Positions 3,757 through 9,515 of a stretch of 44,612 nt of DNA are shown in pieces. The translations under genes were made by a program, and so were the position numbers. The notes beneath the pieces were generated by a model that did no database searches, was not told where the DNA came from, and saw only the letters and a list, made by a program, of their open reading frames with translations. This DNA is from Tabrizicola sp. (GTDB lineage: Bacteria > Pseudomonadota > Alphaproteobacteria > Rhodobacterales > Rhodobacteraceae), in the NCBI RefSeq assembly GCF_016793705.1, contig NZ_JAEULO010000009.1, forward strand, positions 1 through 44,612. Direction: 5' to 3'. Within the stretch, counting starts at the first letter, position 1. Every line of letters begins with the position of its first letter.

Positions 3757-4200
3757 ATGAGCGACAGCGACCTCATCAAGCTCTACTCCGGACGCATCCT
3801 GGCGCTCGCCGCCGATATCCCCCATCTCGGGAGGCTCTCCGCGCCGCAAGCCAGCGCCCGCCGCCGCTCTCCGTTGTGCGGATCGACGGTGACGGCGGAC
3901 GTGGTGGTGAAGGACGGCCGCGTGGCCGAGTTCGCCCAGGACGTGAAGGCCTGCGCCCTGGGTCAGGCCTCGGCTGCCGTGCTGGGTCAGGTCGTCATCG
4001 GTCGCACGCTGCCCGAACTGGAAGCCGCCCGCGAGGCCCTGCAGGCCATGCTGAAGGACGGCGGCCAGGTTCCCCCCGCCCCGTTCGACGGCTACGAAGT
4101 CCTCCTCCCGGCCCGCGACTACAAGAACCGCCACCCGTCGATCCTGCTCGCGCTGGAGGCCGCTTGCGAGGCCATGGAGGCGGCCCAGGCCGCAGCCTGA
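3757..4200 (+). CDS. IscU/NifU-N-like iron-sulfur cluster scaffold protein
   Basis: The 147-residue product has the layout of the IscU/NifU N-terminal family, which hold nascent Fe-S clusters before transfer. Three cysteines sit where the family needs them: C41 in PLCGSTVTADV, C66 in VKACALGQASAA, and C137 in LALEAACEAM. The loop around residues 30-40 (SAPQASARRRSP) is unusual: the canonical scaffold has an aspartate next to the first cysteine region, so this is a divergent relative rather than classical IscU. No isc genes are adjacent. The gene is divergent from hisI, with 61 bp between start codons. Suf-type genes lie about 30 kb away in the same window. I am fairly sure of the family and unsure whether it is a true scaffold. 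Confidence 0.8.
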   Translation: MSDSDLIKLYSGRILALAADIPHLGRLSAPQASARRRSPLCGSTVTADVVVKDGRVAEFAQDVKACALGQASAAVLGQVVIGRTLPELEAAREALQAMLKDGGQVPPAPFDGYEVLLPARDYKNRHPSILLALEAACEAMEAAQAAA

Positions 4201-4210
4201 ACGTCCAAAT

Positions 4211-4245
4211 AAAAAACCGCCGCACATCCAAAGGGATGGCGGCGG
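4211..4245 (-). terminator. intrinsic terminator of the SOS-box peptide gene
   Basis: Read on the minus strand, a 12-bp stem (4217-4229 with 4234-4245, one bulged base, 4-nt loop) is followed immediately by six T's (complement of A 4211-4216). This is a textbook intrinsic terminator. It lies about 80 bp after the stop of the 40-residue peptide gene. On the plus strand no T-run follows, so it serves the minus-strand gene, though the hairpin could also protect the 3' end of the IscU-like mRNA. Confidence 0.85.
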
Positions 4246-4327
4246 CAGTGGCGCGTCTGGAAACGGCGGACGGTGGGCCAGGCAAGGCGGACCGTCATCC
4301 TCGGGGGACAGAGCGCGGGGCAGAAAC

Positions 4328-4450
4328 TCAGGCCATGCCGGGCAGCGACAGCACGGCGAACAGGATCACGAACAGCGCGGCGAGCCCGACCATATCTTCG
4401 ACAGCGCCCTTCGGCGTGCGGGTCAGCAGGGTCTTCATGGCGTCTTTCAT
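4328..4450 (-). CDS. 40-residue single-pass membrane peptide, probably SOS-induced
   Basis: No homologue is recognised. The predicted product has a basic, amphipathic N-terminus (MKDAMKTLLTRTPKGAVED) followed by one hydrophobic helix at about residues 21-37. I chose the ATG ending at 4450 because GGAGG lies five bases before it. In-frame ATGs at 4462 and 4531 lack as good a ribosome site, and the longest (67 aa) would start inside the operator. A perfect alphaproteobacterial SOS box lies 54 bp upstream and an intrinsic terminator downstream, so it is an independent unit just after recG. Size, topology and control resemble Caulobacter SidA, an SOS-induced membrane peptide that blocks division. 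No sequence homology to SidA is claimed. Confidence 0.7.
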   Translation of the reverse strand: MKDAMKTLLTRTPKGAVEDMVGLAALFVILFAVLSLPGMA

Positions 4451-4504
4451 CGCGTCCTCCATGATTGTTGCTGGATTGTTCCCACATCCGCAGCGCCATG
4501 TAAA

Positions 4505-4529
4505 GAACTTTTTAAGAACATTAGCGAAC
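4505..4529 (-). promoter_or_regulatory. SOS box (LexA operator), GTTC-N7-GTTC plus a third half-site
   Basis: On the minus strand GTTC-TTAAAAA-GTTC (4519 down to 4505) matches the LexA operator described for Rhodobacter, Caulobacter and rhizobia. A further GTTC half-site (4526-4529) lies six bases upstream, giving three half-sites about one helical turn apart. The site is between the recG stop and the start of the 40-residue peptide, where it would overlap that gene's promoter. I saw no second match in the upstream regions I checked, including that of ssb. Confidence 0.75.
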
Positions 4530-4554
4530 AAAACGCGACAGGACCGATTCGGCC

Positions 4555-8807
<4,253 letters not shown>

Positions 8808-9515
8808 TCAGGCACTGGCCGCGAGGCGGGCCTGCCCGGCGGATGGATCGCGCAGCACATAGCCGCGGCCCCAGACGGTTTCGATGTAGTTGTCGCCACC
8901 CGTCGCCTCGGCCAGTTTCTTGCGCAACTTGCAGATGAAGACGTCGATGATCTTCAATTCGGGTTCATCCATCCCGCCGTAAAGATGATTGAGGAACATC
9001 TCCTTGGTGAGTGTCGTCCCCTTGCGCAGGGAAAGCAGTTCCAGCATCTGATATTCCTTGCCGGTCAGATGCACCGCCTTGCCGTCCACATCCACCGTCT
9101 TGGCATCCAGATTCACCGAGACCCGCCCGGTCTTGATCATCGACTGGCTGTGCCCCTTCGACCGGCGGATGATCGCATGGATGCGCGCCACCAGCTCCTC
9201 GCGGTGGAAGGGCTTGGTCAGGTAGTCGTCGGCGCCGAAACCGAAGCCTTTCAGCTTGTTTTCCGTATCATCCGCGCCGGAGAGGATCAGGATCGGCGTT
9301 TCCACCCGCGCTTGGCGCACCTGGCGCAGCACTTCATGTCCGCTCATGTCCGGGAGGTTCAGGTCGAGCAGGATCAGGTCGTAGTCGTAAAGCTTCGCCA
9401 GGTCGATCCCGTCTTCGCCCATGTCAGTGCAATAGACGTTGAGGTTGGCATGGGTCAGCATCAGTTCGATGCTGCGCGAGGTGGTGGGATCGTCCTCAAC
9501 AAGCAGAATGCGCAT
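8808..9515 (-). CDS. ctrA: cell-cycle response regulator CtrA
   Basis: CtrA is the OmpR-type transcription factor that, in Caulobacter, silences oriC and drives cell-cycle genes. In Rhodobacterales it mainly controls motility, competence and gene transfer agents. The receiver domain begins MRILLVEDD with the phospho-acceptor D51 in [10 protein letters not shown] and the conserved K in DDYLTKPF. The winged-helix domain (about residues 125-225) contains the CtrA-typical recognition region [16 protein letters not shown]. The product is 235 residues. The C-terminus ends QARLAASA; an Ala-Ala-type tail is used for ClpXP turnover in Caulobacter. The upstream region carries a TTAACCAT CtrA half-site, suggesting autoregulation. 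sciP, encoding the CtrA inhibitor family, is immediately upstream in the same direction. Confidence 0.96.

Follow-up and report, generated by a model that had tools for sequence, protein, structure and literature searches.

TisB and DinQ of E. coli are SOS membrane peptides that belong to the type I toxins. Dual-function RNAs are exemplified by SgrS/SgrT and staphylococcal RNAIII, and sponge RNAs of the CsrB/RsmZ type bind CsrA by means of several GGA loops. In the alphaproteobacterium Caulobacter, the 29-residue SidA is described as an SOS-induced inner-membrane inhibitor of cell division acting on FtsW, and DidA as SOS-independent and acting on FtsN (PMC4211646). EcpR1, a stress sRNA of Sinorhizobium, is described as repressing dnaA and gcrA (PMC4414408).

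The unit analysed here lies on the minus strand of the window, the whole stretch of 44,612 nucleotides of Tabrizicola sp. DNA, between recG (4555-6639) and a convergent gene with a NifU_N domain (3757-4200). We propose that it is a LexA-repressed, self-contained, dual-function transcript after recG, which would give a membrane peptide and an RNA acting through its loops, the peptide most likely restraining division. We assign this reading a probability of about 45%. Control, coding, and RNA structure are argued from sequence comparison, while the functions of the peptide and the RNA are what we infer. The first-pass annotation had described a GTTC-N7-GTTC box with a third half-site, a GGAGG ribosome site, a 40-codon hydrophobic frame, and a terminator after recG, and all of them were found where it had placed them on the minus strand. 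To these parts we add a mirror-oriented near-box (4467-4481) and a conserved RNA before the terminator. The order along the transcript is three GTTC half-sites, TTTACA, AACAAT, GGAGG, ATG, 40 codons, TGA, 81 nt, and the terminator, as follows:

4555..6639, minus strand: recG, directly upstream on the same strand (Pfam RecG_dom3_C; found at 114 of the 117 operator-selected loci listed)
4526..4529, minus strand: third GTTC half-site, N6 upstream of operator 1 (61/75 loci by script)
4505..4519, minus strand: operator 1, LexA-type box GTTC-N7-GTTC with half-sites 4505-4508 and 4516-4519 (74/75 peptide-selected loci)
4475..4504, minus strand: promoter-like TTTACA-18-AACAAT between both operators (promoter scan)
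4467..4481, minus strand: operator 2, mirror-oriented near-box GAAC-N7-CAAC overlapping the -10 (66/75 loci by script)
4456..4460, minus strand: Shine-Dalgarno GGAGG, 5 nt 5′ of the ATG (sequence)
4448-4450, minus strand: start codon ATG (sequence)
4328..4450, minus strand: predicted CDS of the 40-residue single-span membrane peptide MKDAMKTLLTRTPKGAVEDMVGLAALFVILFAVLSLPGMA, including the stop (profile, dN/dS, length conservation)
4328-4330, minus strand: stop codon TGA (sequence)
4247..4330, minus strand: putative 3′ RNA domain from the stop codon onward, a reduced form of the family RNA (leader conservation in the genus; full form in relatives)
4326-4319, minus strand: UUUCUGCC in the 3′ RNA (window sequence)
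4316-4309 with 4259-4251, minus strand: outer stem of the 3′ RNA (window sequence)
4311-4304, minus strand: CUGUCCCC in the 3′ RNA (window sequence)
4285-4280, minus strand: hairpin loop UUGCCU of the 3′ RNA (window sequence)
4211..4246, minus strand: intrinsic terminator of the unit, hairpin plus T run (sequence, folds, stem pairing in the genus)

From the putative transcription start, the transcript would measure about 255 nt, of which about 20 nt form the leader. An upstream in-frame ATG at 4460-4462, 6-7 nt from that start, would extend the peptide to 44 aa; the version recurring across the family is the one with the 40-aa start, not the 44-aa upstream start. Upstream of recG on the same strand (6636-9515) are genes for an NAD-dependent DNA ligase and for a response regulator with receiver and Trans_reg_C domains (Pfam), which presumably resembles CtrA. 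The SOS-type unit thus sits in a repair and cell-cycle neighbourhood.

The GTTC-N7-GTTC box taken by itself, as evidence of control, was rejected, since it does not exceed chance. In the window 1.23 copies are expected, at least one occurred in 70 of 100 shuffles, and in the own genome the pattern matches 93 times and its reversed control 66 times. One of these matches, at C57:118-132 (the same at C56:118-132), resembles the T-arm end of a tRNA gene; it is probably not an operator and is a warning for box counts. The box becomes significant because it is conserved upstream of the peptide across loci. We compared 75 distinct peptide-selected loci (85 with duplicates collapsed), which represent the best-scoring peptide matches and not all of them. 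The box lies within 150 bp upstream of the peptide in 74 of the 75, 71 by script and three (L011, L053, L083) recovered on inspection; L004 is the sole locus having no perfect box. The remaining DNA of the same loci holds 6 same-strand boxes in 213,502 bp. By script, the full array GTTC-N6-GTTC-N7-GTTC is present in 61/75 loci, and the second operator reads GAAC-N7-CAAC in 66/75 and GAAC-N7-GAAC in 3/75. The third half-site is absent in L005, L012, L018, and L022, of which L012, L018, and L022 carry the perfect GAAC-N7-GAAC; lineages thus seem to differ in how strong their operators are. TTTACA-18-AACAAT is the only promoter-like pair in 4150-4650 (1 found, 0.1 expected in shuffles); TTTACA starts right after the last GTTC half-site and AACAAT sits inside operator 2.

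In the reverse test, the genome collection was scanned with the 23-nt operator pattern alone, which returned at least 117 stretches; some genomes are common to this set and the peptide-selected one. Just after recG lie 114 of the 117 listed (78/80 and 36/37 by batch). The exceptions are L158 and L214, where the operator falls at the recG-side end of the locus, and L121, a Muribaculaceae MAG contig that has the exact pattern and neither recG nor the peptide, and that appears to match by chance. A complete or partial peptide occurs in 115 of the 117 listed (76/80 and 33/37 by scripts, the remainder by eye). It is cut by the locus end in L155 and L218, the sequence of L168 is cut before the frame, and L217 and L223 have a whole peptide that falls outside the D..G rule of the script. 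L141 (Paracoccus saliphilus) and L208 keep the operator and the recG context with a shortened peptide of 31 aa, which is a natural reduced version.

The own genome encodes LexA (TIGR00498 match above cut-off), and a box of the same type, GAACACGGGCAGAAC, lies 36 bp upstream of the LexA-matched region. Considering this together with an operator at the unit in nearly all loci, we regard LexA action on the unit as the best reading. Elsewhere in this genome (C15:12700-14900, L033), positions 1054-1079 contain GAAC-N7-GAAC-N7-GAAC with 11-bp spacing before a long frame, which may be a further LexA target. Motifs of Rhodobacterales have been reported, in a paper whose main text does not mention recG (PMC8632094). 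Among the literature matches listed, no title or opening of an abstract pointed to a paper on the peptide or the RNA.

Performing profile searches, we checked how far the peptide is spread. A profile of 30 members found the peptide at E 0.01 in 176 of the 198 family genomes sampled (165 below 1e-5). In the order draw it matched 145/149 genomes, all 149 of the same family (135 below 1e-5), and in the class draw, with at most 25 first-look candidates scored per genome, 5/289, of which four are in the family and the fifth, outside it, is weak (E 0.005). The single peptide matched 31/32 genomes of the genus at E 0.001 and, with E up to 1, 156/198 of the family; many of the latter matches are weak, and some sit in long frames and are probably due to chance. 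By script, 69 of the 75 distinct loci encode a peptide of 40 aa and 3 one of 39 aa, the other 3 being mislocated. M1, D19, and G22 are invariant in 30 aligned peptides; single exceptions occur among operator-selected loci (L217, L223). The conservation of peptide and box after recG, which the first-pass annotation had offered as a check, is borne out by these counts together with those for box and recG given above.

The same annotation had named the lack of synonymous bias in relatives as grounds to abandon the frame, and that test left the frame standing. In 104 close family pairs the median dN/dS was 0.24 (1.09 and 2.71 in the other frames), and over 300 genus pairs it was 0.216 (1.05 and 3.47), the pairs in both cases not being independent. 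This pattern indicates that the peptide frame, unlike the other frames, is under purifying selection. No family for the peptide was found in Pfam, NCBIfam, PHROGs, or the PDB sequences searched; the best matches, E 0.025 in Pfam and E 0.064 in NCBIfam, came from 1 of 30 members each and are taken as chance. The claim of LexA-type control over a conserved small membrane peptide having no Pfam or NCBIfam family is supported at the level of prediction.

The stretch from stop codon to terminator was compared in 72 distinct loci, three of the 75 being dropped for mislocated frames. CTGTCCC occurs there in 60/72 and CTGCCTG in 59/72, while the best 7-mer in 20 shuffled sets reached 15. Structural alignment of 61 of these 3′ regions and of two subsets by MAFFT/RNAalifold was rejected for misaligned stems. 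An alignment-free flank test placed hairpin P2 above the maximum of 500 permutations (4.32 vs 4.04, n = 57) and did not place P3 or P4 above it. Because the stems were misaligned and the flank test supported only P2, we used covariance models. The first, R1, was built from 8 sequences, whose MAFFT alignment with a hand-set structure exceeds shuffles in four of five covariation measures; further pair types do not.

At E 1, R1 was found in place, that is, on the same strand and downstream of the operator by coordinates, in 54 of the 72 loci selected by peptide, and at E 0.01 in 46, the training set making up 8 of them. Among the operator-selected loci listed, it is in place in 85 of 117 at E 1 (58/80 and 27/37) and in 70 at E 0.01 (47 and 23). 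L152 repeats the training sequence L078 and L210, judged by equal score and peptide, repeats L077; without them, the counts are 83/115 and 68/115. Some weak matches are short, and off-place matches occur in L017 and L163 only. We aligned 70 of the 74 R1 matches at E 1e-4 (alignment A7; L092, L098, L148, and L159 left out). As A7 holds strong matches only and is fitted to the structure, its counts are inflated and give an upper view of the effect: two-sided changes at 31/31 modelled pairs, 430 two-sided cells vs 112.8 in shuffles (0/500 as high; slid versions at most 106), and a covariation score of 0.522 vs 0.170 (slid at most 0.097).

The predicted architecture comprises a leader UUUCUGCCUGCG, a long outer stem P1, hairpins P2-P4, a joint GGGUCCCACA, and the terminator. 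The hairpin loops read CCUGUCCCA in P2, GACCUGCCUGUCC in P3, and UGCCUC in P4; P3 is the weakest, 72% paired. In the 64 3′ regions with a script-recognised terminator, UGCCU/UGUCC occurs 267 times, 4.17 copies each vs 0.68 in shuffles, and at least three copies are present in 59/64. In MFE structures, 205 of the 267 copies are mostly unpaired, vs 36% of all 5-mers. Over 64 loci, the core without the terminator has a mean folding z of -2.23. The first-pass annotation had seen a terminator in the 3′ region; the terminator is present, and the part from the stop codon up to it appears to be a conserved RNA as well, structured in relatives.

A second model, R2, was built from the 70 sequences of A7. 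It is in place in 62/72 and 66/80 loci, 70 of these being training sequences, with three off-place matches in the same loci (E 0.76-0.87). Searching whole genomes with strict filters that scored part of the candidates, we obtained matches in 13 of 41 family genomes at E 0.1 and none in 28. In a set of 61 genomes, half of them from the window's genus, R2 matched seven times at E 1, in three cases in place and in four off place (E 0.014-0.62). Weak off-locus matches in this genus (E 0.014-0.44) lie at G621:C76:3366-3543, G603:C22:11243-11370, and G622:C13:69049-69175, and may reflect chance or a diverged second copy. Of 142 genomes from the class, one matched, that one in the family and none outside it. 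Rfam gave nothing above gathering for window positions 4150-4600 and 10 of the 75 loci. Matches to Ysr141 in 4 loci (E 4.6e-6 to 0.07, far below gathering) do not overlap the unit, and in L015 and L027 the match lies inside recG. We consider the predicted 3′ RNA a well-supported family absent from Rfam.

Such an RNA may serve the transcript that carries it and nothing else. The unit would then be an SOS peptide mRNA in which the 3′ RNA acts in cis on stability, processing, or termination and the peptide is the sole functional product. This fits an RNA that begins right at the stop codon and ends in a terminator, and also the R2 matches (E 0.1, 41 family genomes), 12/13 of which coincide with the listed place of the peptide; the 13th genome had no listed peptide place. 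Nevertheless, a single loop motif repeated about four times, on stems that vary in sequence, goes beyond what a stability hairpin would require. The idea that the 3′ RNA sequesters the ribosome site of its own transcript found no support: own pairing is no better than pairing swapped between genomes (-19.97 vs -20.38 kcal/mol). We regard cis action alone as unlikely. Under the dual-function reading, the recurrence of one loop motif points to a sponge for a protein or to pairing at several sites. Perfect matches to the 11-mer loop complement GGGACAGGCAG were not enriched in 61 genomes (181 vs 210 for the reversed control).

The predicted form of the peptide bears on its mode of action. AlphaFold2 gives helices at 2-10 and 14-39 with a mean pLDDT of 81 (72-74 across the first 20 residues). 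Residues 21-40 are free of K, R, D, and E in 69/69 peptides, and conserved positions within 18-37 fall on one face of the helix (permutation p 0.027); for the hydrophobic moment of the N-terminus there is a trend only (p 0.062). The charge-free span and the conserved face suggest a partner, and the model fits a short N-terminal helix followed by one predicted span that would bind it. This speaks against a peptide of the TisB/DinQ kind that would depolarise the membrane and bring on dormancy, itself controlled by the RNA. Such toxins and the peptide described here are both small, single-span, and under SOS-type control; however, the comparison of own and swapped pairing gave no sign that the 3′ RNA pairs with the leader in cis, and plasmid and phage collections held no match to the peptide. 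We consider such a toxin quite improbable.

The window's own RNA is a reduced one. R2 scores 11.8 bits on the window with filters off, and its whole-genome search gave no match in the own genome; by comparison with relatives, the window's genus carries a shortened form of the family RNA. Of 30 genus loci examined, 25 could be compared (5 not parsed), and pairs were counted on 24 (alignment A8). The outer stem P1 is 100% paired in the 24 sequences, nearly invariant, and devoid of covariation. The middle stem and the terminator together show 13 two-sided cells vs 4.5 in shuffles (0/500), although two of the five covariation measures do not exceed shuffles, namely pairs with two-sided changes (103/500) and pair types (500/500). 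The terminator hairpin is present in folds, and its stem, which holds one unpaired base, is 99.3% paired in the 24 sequences; a simple terminator scan of the region reported none, against 0.5 expected from shuffled sequence. Folding stability of the full transcript is unremarkable (z -0.71), and the core of the window without the terminator has a z of -1.83.

In the 25 genus loci, the 26-nt RNA leader is 0.933 identical, while in the frame identity is 0.548 for fourfold sites and 0.832 for codon positions 1-2. The leader being so well conserved would suit an RNA that is the main product, with the peptide minor or coupling translation to RNA processing. Against this reading, which we hold to be very unlikely, stand the dN/dS (about 0.2) and a peptide that keeps to 39-40 aa in 72/75 loci. 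A chance frame beside a chance box, which the expectation of the box alone in the window would allow, is already contradicted by the way box, frame, recG context, and RNA are conserved together across the sampled family, and we dismiss it.

According to the dual-function reading, DNA damage would lead to LexA cleavage and thereby induce the transcript. The peptide would insert in the inner membrane, its N-in orientation being a guess, and would bind a membrane partner via the conserved face D19, G22, L26, L30, L34, and P37. This partner would most likely be the FtsW/FtsI/FtsN complex, so that division is delayed in a SidA-like manner. The 3′ RNA, whole or processed, would act in trans via its repeated UGCCU/UGUCC loops, which would pair with mRNAs or titrate a partner. 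Tentatively, we extend this to most sampled Rhodobacteraceae: there the unit may be a novel type of SOS effector combining a divisome-checkpoint peptide with a multi-loop RNA (sponge or multi-target sRNA) on one transcript, which would then arrest division through its peptide and alter gene expression through its RNA.

If true, Rhodobacteraceae would gain a candidate SOS checkpoint gene, where a search of the own genome gave no match to SulA, and an RNA layer would be added to a response to damage that is commonly regarded as the work of proteins alone. The repeated loop motif means that the RNA partner can be sought directly. The case also illustrates that a widely conserved gene can escape annotation because it has only 40 codons.

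By prediction and description, the unit resembles SidA and DidA in being a tiny single-span membrane peptide of alphaproteobacteria, and SidA in its SOS-type control. Unlike them, its peptide has 40 residues, a constant place after recG, and a conserved RNA attached. With TisB and DinQ it shares SOS-type control and a small hydrophobic peptide; it differs in its presence in most sampled genomes of one family, in a span lacking K, R, D, and E, and in giving no hint of an antitoxin RNA that acts in cis. As far as the sequences can tell, it has what marks a dual-function RNA, an ORF under selection and a conserved, structured non-coding part. As in SgrS/SgrT and RNAIII, one transcript combines a short ORF that is conserved with a structured part that has repeated C-rich loops and looks regulatory, here with LexA-type control, a non-Rfam RNA, and the UGCCU/UGUCC loop motif. 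Like CsrB/RsmZ, it displays one motif in several hairpin loops, but this motif is UGCCU/UGUCC and not GGA, and the transcript is protein-coding. EcpR1 is likewise an alphaproteobacterial stress RNA with a conserved GC-rich loop, whereas it belongs to Rhizobiales, lies downstream of divK-pleD, and has another loop sequence. SOS membrane peptides and dual-function RNAs are already known; their union under LexA-type control, family-wide and with a non-Rfam RNA, appears to be a novel variation on them.
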